DNA of 44,402 nucleotides from a virus, in the IMG/VR virus record IMGVR_UViG_3300003691_000017, positions 1 through 44,402 of that record. One strand, given 5' to 3'. This document shows, piece by piece, positions 4,288 to 38,491 of the stretch. Each line of letters begins with the position of its first letter. The stretch's first letter is position 1. A model generated the notes under the pieces. The model saw only the letters and a program-made list of their open reading frames with translations, ran no database searches and was not told where the DNA came from. Both the position numbers and the translations under genes were made by a program.

Positions 4288-5816
4288 TATAGAACGTCCT
4301 TTTTACGATATGTGAATGAAATATTACTATTTAAACCTTTTTGACCGCTTGCTGTCCAAGCTGCACCAATTGTAGCACTTGGATGAAGATAAATAACATT
4401 ATCATTTTTCTTAATTTCAACTAATCCAAACGCATCTGCGCCATTATCTTCAATCGAGATAACTTGTGTAAAAGGTTCAAGATTTGCAAGACCACTTTCA
4501 ATTTTACAAATATCGGGCATACCTGTAATTGTAAAAGATGTAATATTGCTGTTGCCAAACGATCCTTGAATTTCCATTGTTACCATTTGTGAGCGTATAA
4601 AATAACGACAAATTGTAGTAGCCGATCCAGAATAACCAACCATATTACCAACAAAATAACCAGCAATCAAAGGTTCTTCATTTGCACGTTGTGAAGAATG
4701 TAAACGCCAATCACCAGCAGCATATTTTTCAAATATAAAAAGATCACCAGCAGCAGTTGTTATATTTACACCATTTGGTAAAACTAAATCGGTTGCGTGA
4801 TGTGTAATAACAACAACATCATCGAACTGAAGTGTTACAATTGCGCCGATTGGCTGAGCATCAGCAGTATGTTCAATTGATGTAATATCGGTTGTTCCGG
4901 TAACATTTACTGATGTATCGTTTTCACCAATTAACAATTCAGCGGCACTTGCAACATCTGCACCTTTATAAAATGTCACAACATCAACGAATTCTAGTGC
5001 GTCACCCGCTTCATTTACAGCAACTTGCAGCCCCGCGCCCGCTGCAAGGTCTAAACCGCTCAAATTACCCGCCACAGCCGCCGCAAGCGATGCATCAGCG
5101 CTTACCGCCGCGTTCGTTTCAGATACCAGTGCCGCCGCCGCGCTTACCGCCGTGTTCGTTTCAGATACCAGTGCCGCCGCCGCGCTAATAACCGCAGCCG
5201 CAGCCGCAGCCGCCGCCGTTGCTGCATTTGCTGCACTATCAACATCTGTAATCAATGTGAAATTACCAGAATTAATAAAACCAGAAACAAACATTCCATC
5301 TAACAAATTGTCTGCAATAAGCGGATTGCTCGCAATTGATAAAATAGGCAATACAGGCCCACCATTAAAAGCAACGGTTGCTGGTCCAGTATTATCAGCA
5401 ATAATCGGCAACATGATCAATGTGCGACCATCTTGAACCGGAATAGGTAAATCAGTTGTTGCTTGAATTGCGTTAGCAGTACCCGCACCAACATTGACAC
5501 CAGAAATTACAAATTGAGGAATATCAAGGCGGCGCGTCCAAGCTGGTGCAACATCTGTACCGGTATTTTCATAAATACCATTGTTCGCTTGTGTCGCGTC
5601 ATTTGTTACCCAGGCCATTACAGAAGCTTCAGAAACGGACGTGAGGGCGGTCAATGCGGCTAGGCTATCTTTTACCAGCGCACCAGCTTGTGCGCCTTCT
5701 AGCTGAACTTGCATTTCTGAAAATGCTTTCACAGTGCCTTGTCGCGATGGTTTTTTTGAAGCGTCATATGGAACGCCTAAAATAGCGCCTTTGATCGTGT
5801 CTAGTGGCGTTGTCAT
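4287..5816 (-). CDS. Tail fibre-like protein with alanine-rich repeats
   Basis: This 509-residue protein is probably the host-contacting fibre, placed after the tail-tip protein and before the lysis genes. Residues 1-180 form an N-terminal module of the kind that attaches to the tail. Residues about 195-255 are Ala/Ser/Thr-rich with repeated SAAAALVSETN units, expected to form a trimeric helical or fibrous shaft. The C-terminal part is beta-rich and contains GTTDITSIEHT and LPNGVNITTAAGD. Such C-termini usually carry receptor binding. The shaft repeats are near-identical at DNA level, so repeat number could vary by recombination. The host receptor cannot be read from sequence. Confidence 0.75.
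   Translation of the reverse strand: MTTPLDTIKGAILGVPYDASKKPSRQGTVKAFSEMQVQLEGAQAGALVKDSLAALTALTSVSEASVMAWVTNDATQANNGIYENTGTDVAPAWTRRLDIPQFVISGVNVGAGTANAIQATTDLPIPVQDGRTLIMLPIIADNTGPATVAFNGGPVLPILSIASNPLIADNLLDGMFVSGFINSGNFTLITDVDSAANAATAAAAAAAAVISAAAALVSETNTAVSAAAALVSETNAAVSADASLAAAVAGNLSGLDLAAGAGLQVAVNEAGDALEFVDVVTFYKGADVASAAELLIGENDTSVNVTGTTDITSIEHTADAQPIGAIVTLQFDDVVVITHHATDLVLPNGVNITTAAGDLFIFEKYAAGDWRLHSSQRANEEPLIAGYFVGNMVGYSGSATTICRYFIRSQMVTMEIQGSFGNSNITSFTITGMPDICKIESGLANLEPFTQVISIEDNGADAFGLVEIKKNDNVIYLHPSATIGAAWTASGQKGLNSNISFTYRKKDVL
5098..5181 (-). repeat. Two tandem 42-bp repeats in the tail-fibre shaft
   Basis: Units 5098-5139 and 5140-5181 differ at one visible position (CCGCG versus CCGTG) and encode 14 residues of the Ala-Ser-Glu-Thr-Asn shaft. 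The flanks contain shorter GCC-rich relatives. Near identity suggests recent duplication or gene conversion. Confidence 0.9.
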
Positions 5817-13441: not shown

Positions 13442-13972
13442 TTATGCAGCATCATCTACAATTTCACGCTGGTTTAGTGCAAGGGTGAAAACTTCAAGAT
13501 CGAAGCTTTCATTGCGCCCGTTCGGACGGGTTGGGCCAGTAACCAAGCCGCGATTATACATGATAGAGGGTGTACCAGCATCGGGCGCATCATTGCGAAC
13601 AATTTTGAAGGCGTAATTGAATTTCGTTTTCGCCGCCGCCCGCAATGCAACTTGACCAGCATCACCAACAATACGCGCAACTTCAATCGTAGGATCACCG
13701 GCGTTAGTCAAGCCTTTTGCTTTCTGAATAACATCGGTATCCCAAGTGTCATAATTCAAAATATTGGTTGAAGAACCTGTTTCACCATGATCACCAACCG
13801 CACCAATCTCAACATATGTCAAAAGCTCAAAAGCAGCCAAAAGCAAATCGTCAGGTTGTTGAGTGGTGCAAATCCAAACAGTACTACCGGCATTAGAATT
13901 GGCAAAAGCGCAAGGGGCAGCAAGCGCGGCGGCGGAAAGCATTGCAGTTGTTGCAAGTAAAATTCGTTTCAT
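13442..13972 (-). CDS. Major tail (tube) protein with an N-terminal Sec-like signal sequence
   Basis: This 176-residue protein lies between tail terminator and chaperone genes, the position of the tail tube subunit. The body (NSNAGSTVWICTTQQPDDLL, then VEIGAVGDHGETGSS, then ALRAAAKTKFNYAFKIVR) fits the tube-protein family of this gene order. Residues 1-24 are unexpected: MKR, then a hydrophobic Ala/Leu-rich core, then AFA before N25, a textbook signal-peptide layout with a signal peptidase I site. The ATG at 13972 has AAGGGAA upstream. The only internal Met (M11) is inside the hydrophobic part, so the sequence cannot be explained by a wrong start. Family members as I recall them begin near the ANSNAG position. 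Confidence 0.88.
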   Translation of the reverse strand: MKRILLATTAMLSAAALAAPCAFANSNAGSTVWICTTQQPDDLLLAAFELLTYVEIGAVGDHGETGSSTNILNYDTWDTDVIQKAKGLTNAGDPTIEVARIVGDAGQVALRAAAKTKFNYAFKIVRNDAPDAGTPSIMYNRGLVTGPTRPNGRNESFDLEVFTLALNQREIVDDAA

Positions 13973-14877: not shown

Positions 14878-15942
14878 ATGCCCCGTTTAACACTTGCCGA
14901 AATTGAAGAAAAATTAGGCCCACCTGACGAATTGTTGCACACTTCTAACAATGTTACGTTGATAAGACAATGGGCAATATTGAAAGGCGAAGCATCAGTT
15001 CAGGTACACGCAATGAACAATGTTGCGTTGATTAATTTATATCATACAAAGTATTATGAAAACGAACCGACACTGGAACAAACAATTGCCGCTGAAATGT
15101 TAGTTAAATTTTATGAAGATTATAAAATTAGGTCAATTGACCGTGAATTAGTTCAGCGTGTAATTAAAGAAGAAATTGCAAAACTACCATCTAAAAAAAT
15201 AGAAATAATTACACCACAACGTTCAACAATTATTGAAGGAACGTTTCATTACAGAACTGAATTGATTATTAAAATTGTTTCAATTGGTCATCCTGTAATG
15301 ATGGTTGGGCCAGCCGGTTGCGGTAAAACAAGCATTGGTGAACACGTTTCTAAAGCTTTAGAATTGCCGTTTTATGTAACATCAACCATCAACGATACAC
15401 ACGAATTAACCGGCTTTATTGATGGTTACGGTAAATATCACGATACACCATTTCGCCAAGCTTTTCAAAATGGCGGTGTATGGGTTGCAGATGAAATTGA
15501 TGCTTGGGATGCAAGCGCTTTGCTTGCTGCAAATAGTGCGCTTGCAAACGGTTTTACTACATTTCCAGATAGTGCGCTACCGGTGAACAAGCACCCAAAT
15601 TTCAGAATGATTGCAACCGCTAACACATTCGGCAACGGTGCAGATCGTGTTTATGTTGGACGTAATGAATTAGACGCGGCAAGTTTAGACCGATTTGCAA
15701 CCGTTGATGTTGGTTATGACTTAACGCTTGAACGCATGTTTTCAAACGGCAATGACAGTTGGTTAAAGTATGTTTGGCGCATTCGCAAGAAAATAAACGA
15801 AAAGAAAATAAGACACGTTGTTTCTAGTCGATCAATTATAATGGGTGTAGCTGCATTGGTAGCAGGTATAAGCCGCAAAGATGTTGAAGAAATTTACTTG
15901 TTCAAGGGAATGTCAACCAACGACAGAAAGAAAATATCGTGA
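14878..15942 (+). CDS. AAA+ ATPase of MoxR/CobS type
   Basis: This 354-residue ATPase has about 120 N-terminal residues of helical sequence and then a AAA+ core. Walker A is GPAGCGKTS (144-152), Walker B is VWVADEID (201-208), and the segment THELTGFIDGYGKYHDTPFR matches the MoxR/CobS insert region. Sensor 1 is in MIATANTFG and the arginine-rich SLDRFATVDVGYD follows. Members of this class work as chaperone-like motors with a VWA partner, and the next gene supplies one with a 4-nt GTGA overlap. CobS itself inserts cobalt into cobalamin precursors, but in phages a chaperone or remodelling role is as likely. The gene is on the plus strand inside the minus-strand virion genes. Confidence 0.88.
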   Translation: MPRLTLAEIEEKLGPPDELLHTSNNVTLIRQWAILKGEASVQVHAMNNVALINLYHTKYYENEPTLEQTIAAEMLVKFYEDYKIRSIDRELVQRVIKEEIAKLPSKKIEIITPQRSTIIEGTFHYRTELIIKIVSIGHPVMMVGPAGCGKTSIGEHVSKALELPFYVTSTINDTHELTGFIDGYGKYHDTPFRQAFQNGGVWVADEIDAWDASALLAANSALANGFTTFPDSALPVNKHPNFRMIATANTFGNGADRVYVGRNELDAASLDRFATVDVGYDLTLERMFSNGNDSWLKYVWRIRKKINEKKIRHVVSSRSIIMGVAALVAGISRKDVEEIYLFKGMSTNDRKKIS

Positions 15943-16841
15943 CCGCTATTTTCGGAAATGATGAAACATATTTGAATTATTTTAAAGATCAAAATCCACC
16001 GGCGTTTTTCGGGTTTTCTTCATTGAATGATTTCGTTGAATTTATTGAAAACATACCAATGAAAATTCAACGCGATACAACACGCGATAGAAATGCGGGA
16101 TGGTGCGAATCTATGTCGAAATGGCGCGGTACAAAAAACATGCCTGAAGCTTTGGAACTTGCAACACATGGTTGGAATGAAGGTGTTGAAATTTCAAAAG
16201 AAATAACAGATGAATTTACAGTTCAACACACGTCCAACAAACAACGAATTTATGGCTTAACAGGCGGGCGCGTCAATGTTGGTAAAATGCTTTCTGGTAA
16301 CCCTAATCACATGATCAAACGAACCAAACAACCAGGTAAAAAAGTTGTCACGCTCTTCATCGAAACTTTTATGAGTTCAGGAATTGAACCAGAAAATTCA
16401 ATCATTCGTGCAGCAACAGTTGCGGCAATATCGGACCTTTTAGAAATGAATGGTTATTCGTGTGAAATTGTCGCAATTGTAACTACATCAATAAACGCAC
16501 AAACAGGTTCACAAAGCGCAATTACTTTGAAGTCAGCCGGTGAACGTTTGAATTTATTCGATATTGTTTTTGCATTAGGTCACCCGTCATTTTTTAGACG
16601 GATGATTTTTGCAGCCGTTGGCTCAAGCAAAGAGTGTGCGAACATGTGGCGCTCACAAGGTTCACCAACAACCGCTTTCAATGAAGAACATCCAGTTGCA
16701 TCTAATGAATTTTACATTCGACAACTTGCGTTAGGTCAACAAGACCGGCTTGAATGGGGCGATACGTTACTTGAAAAAACTACAATAATGCTTTCTATAA
16801 TAAAACCTGCAAACCTTGACATTGGGCATCTTGACAATTAG
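15939..16841 (+). CDS. VWA-domain protein, CobT-like partner of the AAA+ ATPase
   Basis: This 300-residue protein starts with GTG overlapping the TGA of the ATPase (GTGA), so translation is coupled. Around residues 134-150 the segment VVTLFIETFMSSGIEPENS occupies the place of the VWA first strand and MIDAS loop, but the usual DxSxS is replaced by ETFMSSG, so metal binding may be altered. Further VWA-like features are AATVAAISDLLEMNGYSCEI and the strand VAIVTTSIN. MoxR-VWA and CobS-CobT pairs act together in other systems. The target of this pair is unknown. Confidence 0.75.
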   Translation: MTAIFGNDETYLNYFKDQNPPAFFGFSSLNDFVEFIENIPMKIQRDTTRDRNAGWCESMSKWRGTKNMPEALELATHGWNEGVEISKEITDEFTVQHTSNKQRIYGLTGGRVNVGKMLSGNPNHMIKRTKQPGKKVVTLFIETFMSSGIEPENSIIRAATVAAISDLLEMNGYSCEIVAIVTTSINAQTGSQSAITLKSAGERLNLFDIVFALGHPSFFRRMIFAAVGSSKECANMWRSQGSPTTAFNEEHPVASNEFYIRQLALGQQDRLEWGDTLLEKTTIMLSIIKPANLDIGHLDN

Positions 16842-19698: not shown

Positions 19699-20151
19699 AT
19701 GTCTAAAACAACTGCACCAAAGCCCGCCGCTGCACCAAAGCCCGCCGCTGCACCAAAGCCCGCCGCTGCACCAAGTAAGCGCATTGCGCCTGATCTTACA
19801 CCAGTTTCAACTAATGTTGCAATGCCTGTGCGCACAAATAACCGTGGTTCAAAATCGGTTTATCCGTTTACTGATTTGCCTGTTGGCGGTTCGTTCGGCG
19901 TAACCAACAAAAGTGCCGCTGGCATGGCTTCAATCGTTTCCAACCAAAACCGGAAACACATTGAAAATGTAAAAGATGAAAACGGCGAAATCGTTTTTCA
20001 AACACAAGACCTAAAAGGTCAAGATGGTAAAACTACCAAAGTGCCAACCGACAAACCGGAAACCGAACGTACAAAGCATTTCTTTGCCGTTGATTGTGAT
20101 CCTGCGAAAGACCCTGAAAAAGCAACTGTTCGCGTTTTCCGCGATATTTAA
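19699..20151 (+). CDS. Hypothetical phage protein with KPAAAP repeats
   Basis: This 150-residue protein has an N-terminal linker of three KPAAAP repeats (residues about 7-24), then SKRIAPDLTPVST and a compact domain beginning YPFTDLPVGGSFGV, followed by charged and Lys/Asp-rich sequence. I recall the YPFTDLPVGGSF motif from other phages of this type as a conserved small protein of unknown function. AAGGAAAA lies before ATG 19699. It has its own promoter and a strong terminator (20176-20217), so it is an independent transcription unit set between head genes of the opposite strand. Confidence 0.85.
   Translation: MSKTTAPKPAAAPKPAAAPKPAAAPSKRIAPDLTPVSTNVAMPVRTNNRGSKSVYPFTDLPVGGSFGVTNKSAAGMASIVSNQNRKHIENVKDENGEIVFQTQDLKGQDGKTTKVPTDKPETERTKHFFAVDCDPAKDPEKATVRVFRDI
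19714..19767 (+). repeat. Three tandem 18-bp repeats encoding KPAAAP
   Basis: Units 19714-19731, 19732-19749 and 19750-19767 are identical at DNA level (GCACCAAAGCCCGCCGCT). They form the N-terminal linker of the gene at 19699. Confidence 0.95.
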
Positions 20152-22150: not shown

Positions 22151-23386
22151 TTAACCCAACAGCATTGCGATATGCTCACGCTTATTTGCTTTGTAACCCC
22201 AAGCAATTGCAACTTCAGCTTTCACCATCCGTTGACCAGCCCAAAGGGTAACTTCGAAAACAAGACCCGAACGCGGGTCAGTAATCATCAGGCGGTCAAT
22301 TGCAAGGTCACCTTCGTTCGGCAAGGCCGGTGCGCGAGTTACAAGATGTAGAGCGTTGTTTGAAAAACCAACGTTCGCAGCGTATGTTCCGCCAACAGTA
22401 ATTGCCGTTGCAGAGGTTGGAATTGCTTTGCGCAAACCAGGCGCGGCGATAACAACCGAACCACCATCTGAAACGTCACCGTCACCTGTAACAACCATGT
22501 ATTTATTGCTATCACCAGCGAACGTAATTGCATTACCTGCAAGAATTGTACCAGTGCCAGCGGACGCGAGATTAATAGTTGTTGCACCAACCGCATAACC
22601 AGCCGTATCGGTTGTAGCAAGTGCGCCCGTACCAGCGGTATTTTCAACAGGTTGACCGGTTTCTTTAACGGAAAGACCGTTCAAATCCAACAGTTCACCT
22701 TGACGCAATGTCATAGATGTGCCAGCCTCGTTAACCTTTGTCAATTGTGACAAGGTACGCAACGCCGCGCCCGCAGTTGTATTGATAACCAATGAACGCC
22801 CTGAAGCTGGTGCGCCGTTATCATCAAGAATTTTGCGGATTTGCGCAGTTTCGCCGGTATTGGTTCCAAACGGTGTTGTACCAGGTGTACCCCATGCTCG
22901 CGAGGCATTTGCAGCCGCTTCAACAGCAAGATCAGCTTCAATTTCATTTGTCAAAACGCGCAAGGCTTGCGCAAACAAATCAGCCTGAACAGACAAATGA
23001 CCAGGTCCAGTATTCAGCCCACGCTGTTCTTCACCGGTAAAACCAAAAGATGAACCGCGCGATTTTGAAATATTAATAAAACCAGCCGCAACAGTTTTAT
23101 CGGTTGGGTTACCAACCTGCATTGAAGGTACAATATCATAAGCGGTTGCATCTGGTGCAACATGGTAAACAACATTTTGACCTTTCATCGCCCGTTCAGC
23201 AGATGGTGCGCGGGCGACAGATGGGATAAAACCAACAAGTTCGCGCGAAACAACGTCCAGGCCAGAATATAGATCAGGAATAAGACCATCCAGCGTGTTC
23301 GCATATGCGGAAAGATGACCAATGTTCGGGGCGGCTAGAAGGGTTGCAGCAAGAGTTACTGAACCAAGTGGAAAAACTTTACGCAT
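22151..23386 (-). CDS. Major capsid protein, P22 coat-like, with an N-terminal signal-like extension
   Basis: This 411-residue protein has the P22-type coat pattern: LDGLIPDLYSGLDVVSRELVGF, FIPSVAR, then AAGFINISKSRG and SSFGFTGEEQRGL, an Ala-rich helix, a beta-rich inserted domain about 250-330, and VTLWAGQRMVKAEVAIAWGY near the end. Residues 1-29 are unusual: MRK, a hydrophobic stretch, and SAYA before N30, like a Sec signal with an AxA site. As I recall, related coat proteins start at about the ANTL position. AAGGAA precedes ATG 23386, and no other in-frame Met or good start lies before residue 67. A hairpin follows the gene and a paired-hairpin leader precedes it. Confidence 0.92.
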   Translation of the reverse strand: MRKVFPLGSVTLAATLLAAPNIGHLSAYANTLDGLIPDLYSGLDVVSRELVGFIPSVARAPSAERAMKGQNVVYHVAPDATAYDIVPSMQVGNPTDKTVAAGFINISKSRGSSFGFTGEEQRGLNTGPGHLSVQADLFAQALRVLTNEIEADLAVEAAANASRAWGTPGTTPFGTNTGETAQIRKILDDNGAPASGRSLVINTTAGAALRTLSQLTKVNEAGTSMTLRQGELLDLNGLSVKETGQPVENTAGTGALATTDTAGYAVGATTINLASAGTGTILAGNAITFAGDSNKYMVVTGDGDVSDGGSVVIAAPGLRKAIPTSATAITVGGTYAANVGFSNNALHLVTRAPALPNEGDLAIDRLMITDPRSGLVFEVTLWAGQRMVKAEVAIAWGYKANKREHIAMLLG

Positions 23387-23419
23387 TTGAGCGTTCCTTT
23401 AATGATGTGAAAAATTTTA

Positions 23420-23452
23420 GGTCATCCGACCCGAGCGCTTGCAGTCATCCAA
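23420..23452 (-). promoter_or_regulatory. Paired GGAU-loop hairpins in the coat gene leader
   Basis: On the minus strand, TTGGATGACTGC, 11 bases, then TCGGATGACC. Each half can fold with GGAT in the loop: GTT-GGAT-GAC (one G-U pair) and GGTC-GGAT-GACC. It ends 33 nt before the coat ATG. The same arrangement precedes the scaffold gene with compensating base changes. The GGA-in-loop form resembles CsrA/RsmA target sites. The protein that binds it is not known. Confidence 0.65.
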
Positions 23453-23861: not shown

Positions 23862-24684
23862 AGGTCAGGTTGAGTTCACCTTTACCCATTAGCGCCGCCG
23901 CTTCAGCAGCTTGCGCCGGTTGAAGTTTTTCAAAATCAGCACGGGCCATTGTGCGACCTTGACCACGTCCGCCGCCTTTGCCGCCCGCGCCCGAACCTGT
24001 GCCGTCATCGGCTTTCAAAATTGCATCTTTATGTGCATAACCATCAACAATAATTTCAAGCGCTTCATCGAGATTAGCAACTTCGCCCATCCGCGTTTTT
24101 GAATAAACTTTATTACCATCTGCACCGTATGGAATGATTTTACCATCTTCAACTTTGAAGTTTTGCCCAAATTGTGCACGAAACATTTCAGCAGGAACGC
24201 CAATTTTATCATTGACGAAATCGGACGTTGAAAACGCATTATCCAACATCATTTTGTCAATCGTTGAACCTTGTGAAGCAATGGTTGCATCTTTTTCACC
24301 AAGTTGAACAGTGAAGCCTTTGCTGATTTCATCTTTCACTTTGTCGATTTCACCGGCATCAACCAAAGTTTTTGCGTCAATTTTTGAAATAAGATCAGCA
24401 TCTTTTTTTGCTTTTTCAGGATCAATACCATCGAATTTTTTCAATGACGCTTCAGCAGCTTCAGCGCGTTCACGGTGACTTTTTGCCTCACCGTTCAAAC
24501 GTCCAATTGTACCGCTATCAACGCTTTGTTCTGAACCATCATCTTTAACCCAAATAGGATTGCCGTTCGACAATTCAAGATTACCGTCTTTATCAGTTTT
24601 CCAACCGGCTTTGCCGCTGTCAAATGCAACAATGTGTGCTGCACCAACGGTAAGAATTACGGTTGTTAATTTCAAGTTTTTCAT
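23860..24684 (-). CDS. Capsid scaffold protein
   Basis: This 274-residue protein is hydrophilic and helical, with IGRLNGEAKSHRERAEAAEA near 64-83, VDAGEIDKVKDEISKGF, and a Gly-rich linker (SGAGGKGGGRGQG) before a C-terminal FEKLQPAQAAEAAALMGKGE segment. Scaffolds of P22-coat phages show this pattern, and the gene lies between portal and coat. Residues 1-21 (MKNLKLTTVILTVGAAHIVAF) are basic then hydrophobic, a weaker version of the signal-like N-termini of the coat and tail tube proteins. ATG 24684 follows a GAAAG ribosome site of modest strength. The leader holds paired GGAU-loop hairpins. Confidence 0.85.
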   Translation of the reverse strand: MKNLKLTTVILTVGAAHIVAFDSGKAGWKTDKDGNLELSNGNPIWVKDDGSEQSVDSGTIGRLNGEAKSHRERAEAAEASLKKFDGIDPEKAKKDADLISKIDAKTLVDAGEIDKVKDEISKGFTVQLGEKDATIASQGSTIDKMMLDNAFSTSDFVNDKIGVPAEMFRAQFGQNFKVEDGKIIPYGADGNKVYSKTRMGEVANLDEALEIIVDGYAHKDAILKADDGTGSGAGGKGGGRGQGRTMARADFEKLQPAQAAEAAALMGKGELNLT

Positions 24685-24698
24685 TTTAATTTCTTTCT

Positions 24699-24731
24699 GA
24701 TCATCCGATCAATTGCACCGCAATCATCCGA
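24699..24731 (-). promoter_or_regulatory. Paired GGAU-loop hairpins in the scaffold leader
   Basis: On the minus strand, TCGGATGATTGC, 11 bases, then TCGGATGATC. The halves fold as AATC-GGAT-GATT and TGATC-GGAT-GATCA. The element ends 14 nt before ATG 24684 and so may occlude the ribosome site. Spacing is identical to the element before the coat gene, and stem positions differ by paired changes. Confidence 0.65.
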
Positions 24732-24757: not shown

Positions 24758-26254
24758 TTATTCGTCATCATCTTCAAGGTCATCACCTGGTATTTCTTGT
24801 AGTAGTCGCGCGGTTTCTTTCTCATGACTAAATTCAGGTGACAATACACCGCGCCGCTTTGTTTCTTCATGTAATGTTTCCTGCGATAGATCACCATTTT
24901 CACGCAATGAACGCAAGTGTTCAAGACCATCTTCGCCATTTAAGAAACTGTCGAATTCAGTATAGACATTAACTTGCGGCTTCCAATCCTTAATACCCAA
25001 CCACATGTTTGTGATTATAAAAGCATTTTCAAGTGCATCTTTCAACATCAGCGCCCAAGCTTCAACCGCTGATTTCGCCTTGCCAGCCGCAACGGCGGTT
25101 GTAATTACAGTGAGGTTGCCGGATTGCGCGGTTAACGGCAAACGCCCTAATTCGCGCAAATCCTTTTTGATTTCTTTTACATCTTCAGCAAGAAATTTCA
25201 ATGATGTTGCAGAAGGTTCAATAAAAGACCAACTCCCCGATTTACCAGAACCATCAGTAGGTGCGTAAAGAACCTTCATAGGCCCAATCGCAAGCGGAAT
25301 TGGTTTACCTTGTTCATCTTTATCAGGTTTCACACCATTACCGGCAAGCATTGGATAAGCTGCCATAATTTTAGCAAATTTCAACGCGCTTTCTTGCTGG
25401 TATAACTCAATTTGCAAATCAGCAGCATCTTGCATTGCTGGAAAATATTTAAAGGTTGCACCATCACGCCGCCCTGTTGCGAACGGAACAAGCGGGATAA
25501 CACCAATTGAAATCACACCTTCATCAATAACAACCCATTCATTGATGCTTGCGTTATCGCCCGTTTTCTTTTCGTATAAATTCCAAGTAACGTTACCAGC
25601 TTCATCACGAATAAATTCGCGAATGTTATCTGGTGTACCAGGTTCTAAAATACGAACTAATGTTAGAACTTCTTTACCGCCAATAATATCAGATTTAGCA
25701 ACAAGAACATTGCGCCCTAAAACATGTGACCAATAAGGACGTATACCAGCATCTTTTTGATCTTGTTGGGTTTTAATCTTTTCACGGTCAACATTCGGAT
25801 AGTCAACGAAAATCCAATCAATAGCAGAGTTCAGACCATTAAAAAACGTACTTGCTGCAAACATAGTTAAATTATTACCGCGCCCGTCAATGTTTTCAAC
25901 AATGTCAGTTATTTTTTCAGGGGTTGGCGTATCGTCCTCACCGGCGACAATTGAAACTTCCTCTTCAAACGGCTTTGAAGAAAGACTTTCAATTATATCA
26001 CGATAAATGTTTGTAAACTTTGATTGTTGAAGGCGGAATTCATAATCGTCTTTAGCTTCATTATTGAATTTCGGAAGGTACTTTTCTTTTGCCGCTTTTA
26101 TTGTTTTTTTACCACCAACAATATCATCTGTTTGATCCCAATAATCAAGCATTGCAGCACTGTCAGGCGAACGCTTTGAAACATCTGTAACAACGTTTTC
26201 AAAAGCAATAATTTTTTTAACCGGTCTAAGAACCGTATTTACCGCTAATCGCAT
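24758..26254 (-). CDS. Portal protein
   Basis: This 498-residue protein forms the dodecameric DNA gate. It follows terminase large subunit and precedes scaffold and coat. Segments such as EKYLPKFNNEAKDDYEFRLQ, QQSKFTNIYRDIIESLSSKP, MAAYPMLAGNGV and AAGKAKSAVEAWALMLKDAL fit the portal family often called DUF4055. I start it at ATG 26254 (MRLAVNTVL) because GAGGAAA lies 12 nt upstream. The 24-residue longer frame lacks a ribosome site. It overlaps the terminase end by 29 nt. The C-terminus is acidic (DDLEDDDE). Confidence 0.85.
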   Translation of the reverse strand: MRLAVNTVLRPVKKIIAFENVVTDVSKRSPDSAAMLDYWDQTDDIVGGKKTIKAAKEKYLPKFNNEAKDDYEFRLQQSKFTNIYRDIIESLSSKPFEEEVSIVAGEDDTPTPEKITDIVENIDGRGNNLTMFAASTFFNGLNSAIDWIFVDYPNVDREKIKTQQDQKDAGIRPYWSHVLGRNVLVAKSDIIGGKEVLTLVRILEPGTPDNIREFIRDEAGNVTWNLYEKKTGDNASINEWVVIDEGVISIGVIPLVPFATGRRDGATFKYFPAMQDAADLQIELYQQESALKFAKIMAAYPMLAGNGVKPDKDEQGKPIPLAIGPMKVLYAPTDGSGKSGSWSFIEPSATSLKFLAEDVKEIKKDLRELGRLPLTAQSGNLTVITTAVAAGKAKSAVEAWALMLKDALENAFIITNMWLGIKDWKPQVNVYTEFDSFLNGEDGLEHLRSLRENGDLSQETLHEETKRRGVLSPEFSHEKETARLLQEIPGDDLEDDDE

Positions 26255-28001
26255 GGCCTTTATTTTCCTCAATTGGAAAGTACATTTGAATTCCGCAATC
26301 CGCCAAGTTTGGCGATTTTGTACCATCCGGTTTTTTGTTCACCATAGTTCGTAAAGACTTACTCGGCCCCATTGTTGGTTGCGCCAACTCTTTCATTAGT
26401 TGGTGCAATAATTTCATTGAACTGTCAAGGCTTATGAGTTCTTCAACAGGGTAAAATATACCTTCAGTGATGTTTTTGAAAGTCTTATAAAATCTTGATC
26501 TAATGGAAAGCCATGCTTGCGCTTTCATGTTTTCAAAATAATCTTTGTTTAAAATGCTATCTTCATCATCAGGTATTATATGATCAAACGGGTCAACAAC
26601 AGCAGCGCCCGCATTCCAGGGAACAAGTTTAACAATTTTAGGATCAACAAGCTTTTCATCAACTAATCGGTTAAACTCAGCTTTAACCCCTGCACCAACA
26701 CCGATCACGTCATATTGAATTTTAATTGGCGTTTTACCACGTACAGAAGCAAGCATTTTACGCGTTGTAACACCTGTATCACGTTCGCCCCATTCTTCAA
26801 CATCACGCCAAATAATCCATTGTCGCAAACTAGCGGCGTTGCGGTCAATACCACCATCGGCAACGTCAAGCCCAGCGCCCCAAATATTCGGAATGTCTTT
26901 TTCTTCAAAACCTATCCGAATATTACCGGCATCATCTTTCCATTTGATTTTCTTATGTGCATCAACAGCTTTTTCAATCCATTCATAGGGGATGATTGTA
27001 TTCTGAACAGCAGCACTATAATTTCGATCAACCTCTTGTGCAAAAACGTGAAGCAAACCTTCGCGCTCATGTTTTGCTTTTTTAATGTCGTACCATTGTT
27101 GTGTTTTTTCAGGATGATCACGCCAATCAATCACAAAAACTTGAACATAACCTGGTTCAAGTTTTTTATCTGGTTGCCAATTAACACCAGCTTCACGCCG
27201 CCGATGAAAAACATTACCCAAACCGTTAACAGATGAAATATCAATCTGTACTTCAGTATTGTTACCTAAAGCCGCTTCAATGAGTTCTGGGCGTTCATAA
27301 TGCGCACTTTCATCTTTGAAATAAATTGAGGTACGCCCACCACGTCCAATATTATCACCAGCTTCACCCATGATAATTGAACCATTATCAGGGTTAATAA
27401 GCTTCATATAAGTTGCATGTTTGCGCTTGTCGAAACCTTCAGGTTTGAAAACATCAGGCAATCTATCAATCAACAAACGCATCTTTTCGAAAATACTATC
27501 AGGGTTACCAAGTTTATCAACTAAATCGGATTTACGTGAACCCCAACCACCGGCAAAATCATTTATGAATACCCAAGCCCAAACACTAAAGCCACAACTG
27601 CACCAGGTCGCACCGGCATCGCGGCATTTTTCGGCAAGACCACTTTCACCAGTTTGATATAGTTGGTATATGAATTGTATGAACTCGCGTTGTTTCGGAA
27701 AAAATACAAACGGCATCCATTTGTTATTTTTCTTACGTGGGTCATAAGTATCCATCCAATGCATTATAAATTCATCAGGGCGGGTTGAATAATAAGCTTT
27801 TGCCGATTTTAAAAGATCAGGATCAGCCCGCAATTTTTCAAGCTGTTCAATGCGCCAAGCATAAATAGCGCGGTAATTTGGTGGCCAATGTTCAGCATCG
27901 GTTGTTGCGGGTTTAACCGCCTGAAGAATATCAGGTTGTTCACCAATATTTTTAAACCAATCAAACAAAGACGCATTATTTGTAAAATAACTATTGACCA
28001 T
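26226..28001 (-). CDS. Terminase large subunit
   Basis: This 591-residue motor packages DNA. The ATPase domain carries KCRDAGATWCSCGFSVW as the Walker A-like loop (about 125-140) and SIYFKDESAHYERPE as Walker B with the catalytic Glu (about 225-235). The nuclease domain has AGLDVADGGIDRN (about 376) and QYDVIGVGAGVK. I chose ATG 28001 (MVNSYFTNNASLF) with GGTGAG 5 nt upstream. The frame reaches further but those Met lack ribosome sites. The ATG lies within the -35 region of a plus-strand promoter at 27994. The start of the portal gene is inside its end. Confidence 0.93.
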   Translation of the reverse strand: MVNSYFTNNASLFDWFKNIGEQPDILQAVKPATTDAEHWPPNYRAIYAWRIEQLEKLRADPDLLKSAKAYYSTRPDEFIMHWMDTYDPRKKNNKWMPFVFFPKQREFIQFIYQLYQTGESGLAEKCRDAGATWCSCGFSVWAWVFINDFAGGWGSRKSDLVDKLGNPDSIFEKMRLLIDRLPDVFKPEGFDKRKHATYMKLINPDNGSIIMGEAGDNIGRGGRTSIYFKDESAHYERPELIEAALGNNTEVQIDISSVNGLGNVFHRRREAGVNWQPDKKLEPGYVQVFVIDWRDHPEKTQQWYDIKKAKHEREGLLHVFAQEVDRNYSAAVQNTIIPYEWIEKAVDAHKKIKWKDDAGNIRIGFEEKDIPNIWGAGLDVADGGIDRNAASLRQWIIWRDVEEWGERDTGVTTRKMLASVRGKTPIKIQYDVIGVGAGVKAEFNRLVDEKLVDPKIVKLVPWNAGAAVVDPFDHIIPDDEDSILNKDYFENMKAQAWLSIRSRFYKTFKNITEGIFYPVEELISLDSSMKLLHQLMKELAQPTMGPSKSLRTMVNKKPDGTKSPNLADCGIQMYFPIEENKGHAISGKYGS

Positions 28002-37602: not shown

Positions 37603-38018
37603 AAAAAGGTGAAACACGTTGGACCGCAACGATAGATGACGAAACCGGTAAAATCGAGTATGACGAATGGATTTTAAAATCCATTCGTCGGCGCAACATA
37701 CATAACCGTTACGTTAACCCGTTTTACGTTAAAAACTTTCATTGGGTTCAGAAAATCAAAGGCATTACATGGGTTAAGCTATCAACCAAACATTTTGATT
37801 GGGGATGGGCTAAAAATATTCCGGCGTGGTTGAAATATTCACATTATGAAGGGTTAAAATGTAGATTGAGCGCAAGCCGCCAAGGTGCATTGCAAGAACT
37901 TGCGAAAACAGAAAAATTCTGGTTCAAACGCAACGGCGATAAATATCTTGAACCAGGTGAATTAACTCACGCTGAAAAATTGAAAAAAATAGCATATGCA
38001 AGGAAACGTTTAAAATGA
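37599..38018 (+). CDS. Hypothetical basic protein
   Basis: This 139-residue, Lys/Arg/Trp-rich protein has ATIDDETGKIEYDEWILK, KNFHWVQKIKGITWVKLS and a C-terminal GELTHAEKLKKIAYARKRL. Its net positive charge suggests nucleic-acid contact, but no fold is recognised. GAGGAATTTTGAA precedes ATG 37599. Confidence 0.7.
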   Translation: MKKGETRWTATIDDETGKIEYDEWILKSIRRRNIHNRYVNPFYVKNFHWVQKIKGITWVKLSTKHFDWGWAKNIPAWLKYSHYEGLKCRLSASRQGALQELAKTEKFWFKRNGDKYLEPGELTHAEKLKKIAYARKRLK

Positions 38019-38491
38019 AATTATTCGCCGCAATGACCGCCGCCGCTTTATTACTGACAACACCAGCAATCGCACAACCAGATTGTTATTTATCAGCTAG
38101 CGCGTTTACAATTCATCCCGAAGATGATGATGGTAGTTTAAATGGTTTCACCCCAGGCATAGGTGTAGGCTGTTCATGGGGTGAAACCGTGCAGTTTAGT
38201 GCTGGTGTTGCCATGCTTTATAATTCATATGAAGATTGGAGTAAAACCGTAAATGTAGCGCTTACATTTCGAGTTGTAAAAACACCTGACATTACAATTC
38301 ATTTCGGCGGCGGTATAGCTTTGATGGAATATGCTAATCTTGCACATAAGTATCCTAGTGTCGGTGATTATATCCCCGTTCCGTTTTGGGAATTGAGCGC
38401 TTCAGGTTTCGGACATTTTGAACCCGTTATTCGATACGTTGACAGGGGTGAAAGTAAAGCTATTAATTTCGGTTTTCGATACAGGTTTTAA
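38015..38491 (+). CDS. Secreted outer-membrane beta-barrel-like protein
   Basis: This 158-residue protein has a clear signal peptide (MKLFAAMTAAALLLTTPAIA, cleavage before Q21), then alternating beta strands (GFTPGIGVGCSW, VQFSAGVAMLYN, NVALTFRVVK, ITIHFGGGIALM, AINFGFRYRF) and a C-terminal Phe, the usual signal for outer-membrane barrel insertion. It is short, so perhaps an eight-stranded barrel. Phage-made outer-membrane proteins can block superinfection or change the surface. That role is inferred. It is the last gene of the coupled group that starts at 36645. Confidence 0.8.
   Translation: MKLFAAMTAAALLLTTPAIAQPDCYLSASAFTIHPEDDDGSLNGFTPGIGVGCSWGETVQFSAGVAMLYNSYEDWSKTVNVALTFRVVKTPDITIHFGGGIALMEYANLAHKYPSVGDYIPVPFWELSASGFGHFEPVIRYVDRGESKAINFGFRYRF

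Follow-up and report, generated by a model that had tools for sequence, protein, structure and literature searches.

In the phage genome analysed here, a 44,402-nucleotide stretch (positions 1 to 44,402 of IMG/VR record IMGVR_UViG_3300003691_000017; the window), the major coat protein, the scaffold-like protein, the tail tube protein and the portal each begin with an N-terminal leader (Table 1). The leaders are restricted to one clade of rhizobium-type phages and end in a single junction grammar, although the proteins that carry them are unrelated. Their in-frame translation is strongly supported by the ribosome-binding sites and by conservation at the protein level. We tentatively interpret them as a shared N-terminal targeting or pro-peptide module, which would be removed beside an aromatic residue during assembly, and we hold this reading with slightly less than even confidence.

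Table 1. Positions in the window of the genes, leaders, ribosome-binding site and RNA hairpins discussed in the text.
Feature	Position	Strand	Details
P22-type major coat protein, 411 aa, with N-terminal leader	22151..23386	-	phrog_283 E 4e-81; Pfam P22_CoatProtein E 3e-7; predicted fold similar to P22 gp5 procapsid 8i1v, E 2e-17
Coat leader, residues 1-29 MRKVFPLGSVTLAATLLAAPNIGHLSAYA	23300..23386	-	junction A27-Y28-A29-N30; Y28 in the place of Met in MANTL; pLDDT <50
Coat-gene Shine-Dalgarno AAGGA	23395..23399	-	8 nt before ATG 23386
Scaffold-like protein (DUF6651, phrog_784/phrog_206), 274 aa	23860..24684	-	leader MKNLKLTTVILTVGAAHIVA-F21-DS; N-terminus MKNLKLTTVILTVGAAHIVAFDS
Scaffold leader, 20 residues before aromatic F21	24625..24684	-	
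Portal (DUF4055, phrog_145), re-started at ATG 26254	24758..26254	-	leader MRLAVNTVLRPVKKIIA-F18-ENV; N-terminus MRLAVNTVLRPVKKIIAFENV
Portal leader, 17 residues before aromatic F18	26204..26254	-	least hydrophobic among the four
Tail tube protein (phrog_158; lambda gpV fold), 176 aa	13442..13972	-	leader MKRILLATTAMLSAAALAAPCA-F23-ANSN; N-terminus MKRILLATTAMLSAAALAAPCAFANSN
Tail tube leader, 22 residues before aromatic F23	13907..13972	-	mean pLDDT 52-57, residues 1-20
DUF7303/phrog_7597 protein	19699..20151	+	leader absent in the window (Pro/Ala-rich start)
Scaffold 5' UTR hairpin TTGATCGGATGATCAG, loop GGAU	24697..24712	-	loop 24702-24707; second GGAU loop 23 nt further upstream, 24725-24730
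Coat 5' UTR hairpin GGGTCGGATGACCT	23419..23432	-	loop 23423-23428; second YGGATG 23 nt further upstream, 23446-23451

The original prediction held that the coat reading frame opens with a segment like a signal peptide and is otherwise a normal P22-type coat, and the start codon, the profile matches and the predicted fold bore this out. The N-terminus reads MRKVFPLGSVTLAATLLAAPNIGHLSAYAN30TLDG (longer form, MRKVFPLGSVTLAATLLAAPNIGHLSAYANTLDGLIPDLY). The phrog_283 'major head protein' profile matches residues 29-411 from its own position 2, which leaves the first ~28 residues of the coat outside the family. The match to Pfam PF11651 (P22 coat) is over the cut-off, and both profiles thus identify a P22-type coat. 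When the predicted coat structure was searched with Foldseek, P22 procapsid and capsid chains were the best matches (TM about 0.6), and the model has the HK97 fold with P22 features. A search of solved structures by sequence returned no match.

The coat starts at ATG 23386, which is preceded by a Shine-Dalgarno sequence, and the frame contains no other ATG, GTG or TTG before the conserved block; the ribosome site and the lack of a Met start near residue 30 had been anticipated. A wrongly called start codon, with translation beginning near residue 29 and the leader left untranslated, would agree with the coat relatives that begin at MANTL. It is nevertheless barely conceivable and was rejected: no in-frame start is present near residue 29, nearly all lineages have a Shine-Dalgarno sequence ahead of the leader ATG, and the leader is kept as protein across diverged DNA.

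In most relatives the coat starts, as M-A-N-T-L, at the very position of Y28-A29-N30-T31-L32 in the window, as expected from the earlier claim that the junction adjoins the start point of related coats. The nearest relatives have leaders of their own, namely Rhizobium phage P106B (MRKNLILPSLAAPFILSGAYASANTL), Rhizobium phage RHph_X2_24 (MRKNILLGGSVLAAPFIGHLSAYASANTL) and the environmental phage L001 (MRKSFLAASTAILAAPAMVHQSAYANTL), and a coat leader is present in ~40 related lineages, including the two Rhizobium phages. In a tree built on the mature part of the coat only, 36 of the 40 members of one side bear the leader, and the leader label requires 6 changes, compared with 31 in shuffles. One apparent loss (L298) has in-frame MRKMMLLAISQSAPIMGFDNTL upstream, so that its leader is present, and losses within the clade are few (L119 is an example). 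The coat leader is a clade-wide trait with few losses, and it probably had one origin. Bearing leaders is not a trait of all Rhizobium phages, as the related tail tubes of RHph_X3_2, RHph_TM3_3_9 and phage 438212 are without a leader. The observation of a coat leader is confirmed and is larger in extent than first noted: the leader had been treated as a feature of one coat, and homologues with the same residues had been listed as evidence against it, but comparison of the first residues showed that homologues do carry similar ones. Four remote P22-type coats (L264, L266, L247 and L013) have hydrophobic N-terminal extensions of 43-66 residues, with uncertain start assignment; as the aromatic-x-Asn junction is missing from them, they were set aside as unrelated.

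The leaders diverge faster than the proteins that they precede, with ~45-50% identity compared with 55-75% for the corresponding mature parts. Between close pairs, the changes in the leader comprised 15 silent and 6 replacement changes, in a small and non-independent sample.

Leaders were identified in the fetched lineages for coat (39), scaffold (35), tube (24), portal (17) and DUF7303 (5) proteins. The scaffold leaders of P106B and X2_24 are MKQVINRHLAILLATAFNN and MKAHILALLTATAFNN, the tube leaders are MKSYLAILLASAFANSN and MKLNLALLATAAFANAN, the portal leaders are MFRKLHLLSSTAFANNN and MRKHLLASAAYNN, and the DUF7303 protein, which lacks a leader in the window, has one in both phages (MKTALNLITATAFANG and MSHSRRSIFSATAFANG, respectively). 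Leaderless tubes start MANSNAAS or MANTNAAS; the phenylalanine of FANSNAAS takes the place of the Met, as the tyrosine does in YANTL. For the portal, the longest reading frame (24758-26326) has its start within the terminase gene, at 26326, while the start at 26254 has AGGA/AAAGG upstream and, judged from the sequence, fits a ribosome site and the leader pattern better. The presence of coat and scaffold leaders is correlated across 68 lineages (32 with both, 30 with neither and 6 discordant), with relatedness as a confounder. The copying of one DNA leader from gene to gene was considered and rejected, as the likeness within genomes was barely higher than that between genomes (mean local score of 10.7 vs 9.2), and the best match between the upstream and leader DNA of different genes within a genome was the UTR hairpin, not the leader. 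Many relatives of the tail tube protein have an additional C-terminal domain of ~90 residues (alignment columns 180-290), presumably Ig-like by its appearance, as in lambda gpV, which is missing from the window tube.

Despite their differing sequences, the leaders follow one grammar: a Met, an early K/R, a hydrophobic or small stretch, and small-[F/Y/H]-x-N at the junction. In three genomes read whole, the strict grammar matched 13 of 238 proteins, including 9/9 of the coat, scaffold and tube proteins and 4/229 of the others (hypergeometric 1e-13, a descriptive value, as the grammar was written after the sequences had been viewed and the lineages are not independent). Less open to such post-hoc bias is the test of a fixed column, in which the Met-equivalent position is F/Y/H in 29/39 coats (P about 1e-24 against the leader background; 7.7% at the other positions of these leaders) and in 22/24 tubes (P about 1e-26; 5.2%). 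Across the four families, whose leaders are otherwise unrelated, Ala/Gly/Ser precedes the aromatic in 104/117 leaders and Asn is at +2 in 81/117. The residue directly after the aromatic is D/E/N in 33/35 scaffolds, and it is small in just 58/117 leaders overall. The length before the junction varies from 8 to 46 residues with the junction kept, as expected for a segment that is removed.

As a yardstick for genuine signal peptides, we used 27 substrate-binding proteins from one rhizobial genome (Phyllobacterium), with cleavage sites placed by hand on the AxA rule. A/G/S was present at -1 in 27/27 of these signals (partly by construction), F/Y/H at -2 in 11, and Asn at +1 in none. The n-region of the phage leaders is positively charged, with K/R/H within residues 2-6 in 111/117. 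The median best 9-residue hydrophobic window was 2.2 for tubes and 2.1 for scaffolds, close to the 2.0 of the rhizobial proteins; the coat leaders were also near this yardstick and the portal leaders were clearly lower (1.27). These features, as well as an AxA-compatible junction in 29/39 coats and 18/23 tubes, would be consistent with ordinary Sec/SRP signal peptides cut by the host signal peptidase I, with the virion proteins passing or engaging the translocon; the coat proteins of filamentous phages do bear real signal peptides. The window coat (AYA-N) and tube (AFA-N) satisfy the -3/-1 rule and, taken alone, would pass as signal peptidase substrates.

The full set of leaders argues against this explanation, which we consider distinctly unlikely. 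The -3/-1 rule was satisfied in 57/117 leaders in one register and in 63/117 with a cut placed just before the aromatic, and at the shared junction it was satisfied in 1/35 scaffolds and 4/15 portals. A/G/S was found at -1 in 58/117 phage leaders, compared with 27/27 of the yardstick signals (P 1e-7). Several leaders, with just 8-14 residues ahead of the junction, are short by the standard of Sec signals, the portal leaders are weakly hydrophobic, and export would remove the coat and scaffold from the cytoplasmic DNA-packaging head. As a small residue is present at -1 in only half of the leaders and one scaffold of 35 follows the rule, classical signal-peptidase cleavage at the shared junction does not account for the whole set. 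A bacterial lipoprotein signal was also rejected, since no conserved Cys was found at the junction in any leader family when a lipobox was sought. The n-parts of the leaders and, portals aside, broadly the h-parts then resemble signal peptides, and the junction follows a rule of its own. The part of the original prediction that stands is that a signal-peptide-like segment has been added before a P22-type coat; the part that does not is the signal peptidase I junction, as the conserved residue is an aromatic. Its literal reading, a signal peptide on one coat, is too narrow, and its cleavage rule is probably not right. Elsewhere in the window, a small protein (38015-38491, plus strand) has a textbook signal peptide (MKLFAAMTAAALLLTTPAIA-QPD) and is possibly a phage-encoded surface protein.

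In the AlphaFold model of the coat (38 coat sequences aligned), residues 1-29 had a pLDDT of <50, followed by a confident N-arm helix at residues 32-47. In the tube model, the lambda gpV-like fold began at residue 31, after residues 1-20 with a pLDDT of 52-57. Both leaders are thus predicted to be unordered segments outside the mature folds, which fits a removed or flexible segment; the low pLDDT also fits a flexible arm that is retained, and the leader columns have few homologues to align.

Such a retained arm is the main rival to a removed pro-peptide. The leaders would stay on as N-terminal assembly arms that bind each other, the membrane or a common partner (a chaperone or scaffold network), with the aromatic-x-Asn as a structural cap. 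The coat leader keeps additional protein-specific positions, AP-x-I-x-H..AYAN, in many lineages, which could mean a lasting structural role and would speak against removal. The affected proteins are the multi-copy, self-assembling ones, and the scaffold junction does not fit signal peptidase I. Also in favour of an arm, the search of the shared genes yielded no protease gene that the leader-bearing phages have in common and leaderless ones lack; the genes searched, a part of the full complement, matched no peptidase family, and no phage-encoded maturation protease was identified among them. However, the leaders are predicted to be unordered and outside the coat and tube folds, their lengths differ greatly within the same protein, the tail tube and capsid are separate structures that are not known to share an interface, and leaderless relatives align again from precisely the Met position onwards. 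We regard the assembly arm as unlikely, but as a serious contender.

If the leaders are cleaved, a host protease would be the most likely agent, judging from the gene content. Between the tail and head modules, which lie on the opposite strand, the window has an AAA+ ATPase gene (CobS/MoxR-like, phrog_249) followed by a DUF7192 gene (14878-16841, plus strand). This pair was found solely in leader-bearing relatives, although not in all; its absence from at least 5 leader-bearing contigs of 48-55 kb led us to reject it as a dedicated leader processor.

Of the leader-bearing genes, those of the scaffold, coat and sometimes tube also bear conserved hairpins in their 5' UTRs, a finding separate from the leaders. 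A hairpin with a YGGAUR loop was present in the 5' UTR of 19/35 scaffold, 20/41 coat, 5/26 tube and 0/29 portal genes, and in 7/236 of all genes of three genomes, 4 of the 7 being scaffold or coat genes. The hairpins often occur in two copies, 22-23 nt apart, at the same place in many relatives. Their stem covaries, with 92% of cells paired, double changes in all five pairs, and 83 double-change cells compared with 29 in shuffles; as the copies were picked by their two inner pairs, the outer pairs are the fair part of this test. The signal collapsed when slid. A search of Rfam with the window stretch gave no match to the hairpins. By analogy, they resemble GGA-loop sites of the CsrA/RsmA type, or an operator by which a phage would control the translation of late structural genes. 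In P106B (L077), an annotated 38-aa gene (P106B_08, 4986-5102) overlies the coat 5' UTR and covers the GGAU hairpin at 5002-5017; it is probably not a real gene.

The hairpins raise the question of whether the first codons act at the level of RNA or translation (start accessibility, rate or a link to the GGAU hairpin), with the peptide incidental; the genes concerned are all presumably highly expressed late genes. This is very unlikely. The start regions of leader genes were not less structured than those of other genes (median of -8.7 vs -7.8 kcal/mol, P 0.41), and start-region accessibility was rejected as the role of the leader. Furthermore, conservation is at the amino-acid level, as seen in the junction and in the excess of silent changes, and there are portals with leaders but without a hairpin.

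The leaders share features with several known systems. Like Sec/signal peptidase I peptides, including those of filamentous-phage pVIII and pIII, they have an early K/R, a stretch that in tube and scaffold is about as hydrophobic, and small residues before the junction. Sec signals have an invariant small residue at -1, whereas the phage leaders have an aromatic and Asn at the junction, with D/E/N after the aromatic in scaffolds, are in some cases very short, and belong to proteins of tailed phages, for which assembly is cytoplasmic. N-terminal pro-peptides cut by a phage protease include the HK97 delta domain and those of the T4 gp21 and phiKZ gp175 substrates. These resemble the leaders in being N-terminal, absent from relatives, possibly removed and present on several virion proteins per phage; the leaders differ in being signal-like and hydrophobic, in including the tail tube, and in that no prohead protease gene was found here. 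The T4 capsid-targeting sequence, a short N-terminal tag of internal head proteins, targets cargo into the head. It is likewise common to unrelated virion proteins, but it is not hydrophobic and signal-like, and here the coat, portal, scaffold and tail tube bear the leader. The leaderless P22-type coats (phrog_283; HK639, Salicola CGphi29 and Acinetobacter qsb1) are homologous in the mature part, have a similar gene order and begin MANTL or MSNTL. No description of such leaders was found in the titles and abstracts of the literature searched, and on that basis the phenomenon, broader than one coat, is undescribed as far as we could find.

Under the pro-peptide reading, the coat, scaffold, tube and, less regularly, portal proteins would be synthesised as precursors bearing one type of leader, which may keep the newly made, self-assembling proteins tethered to the inner membrane or a chaperone. 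Removal next to the aromatic would then give N-termini (ANTL..., ANSNAAS...) that resemble those of leaderless relatives. The leader would serve the timing or location of assembly; we infer this purpose, as well as the removal, its exact position and the protease. A more specific form of the idea, possible though doubtful, is an undescribed sorting or maturation code of tailed phages, in which signal-like leaders with a terminal small-[F/Y/H]-x-N on the coat, scaffold, portal and tube would gate head and tail assembly by association with the membrane (or a chaperone), with release through one protease, possibly of the host, other than signal peptidase I.

The coat, scaffold and tail-tube proteins of tailed phages are regarded as cytosolic, with the fold beginning right at the N-terminus. 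Gene callers and tools of the SignalP type may mislabel leader-bearing structural proteins as secreted. If the proposal is true, a leader system common to the head and tail would mean that an N-terminal address sets the place or time of assembly in this lineage, and that a processing step has been overlooked.
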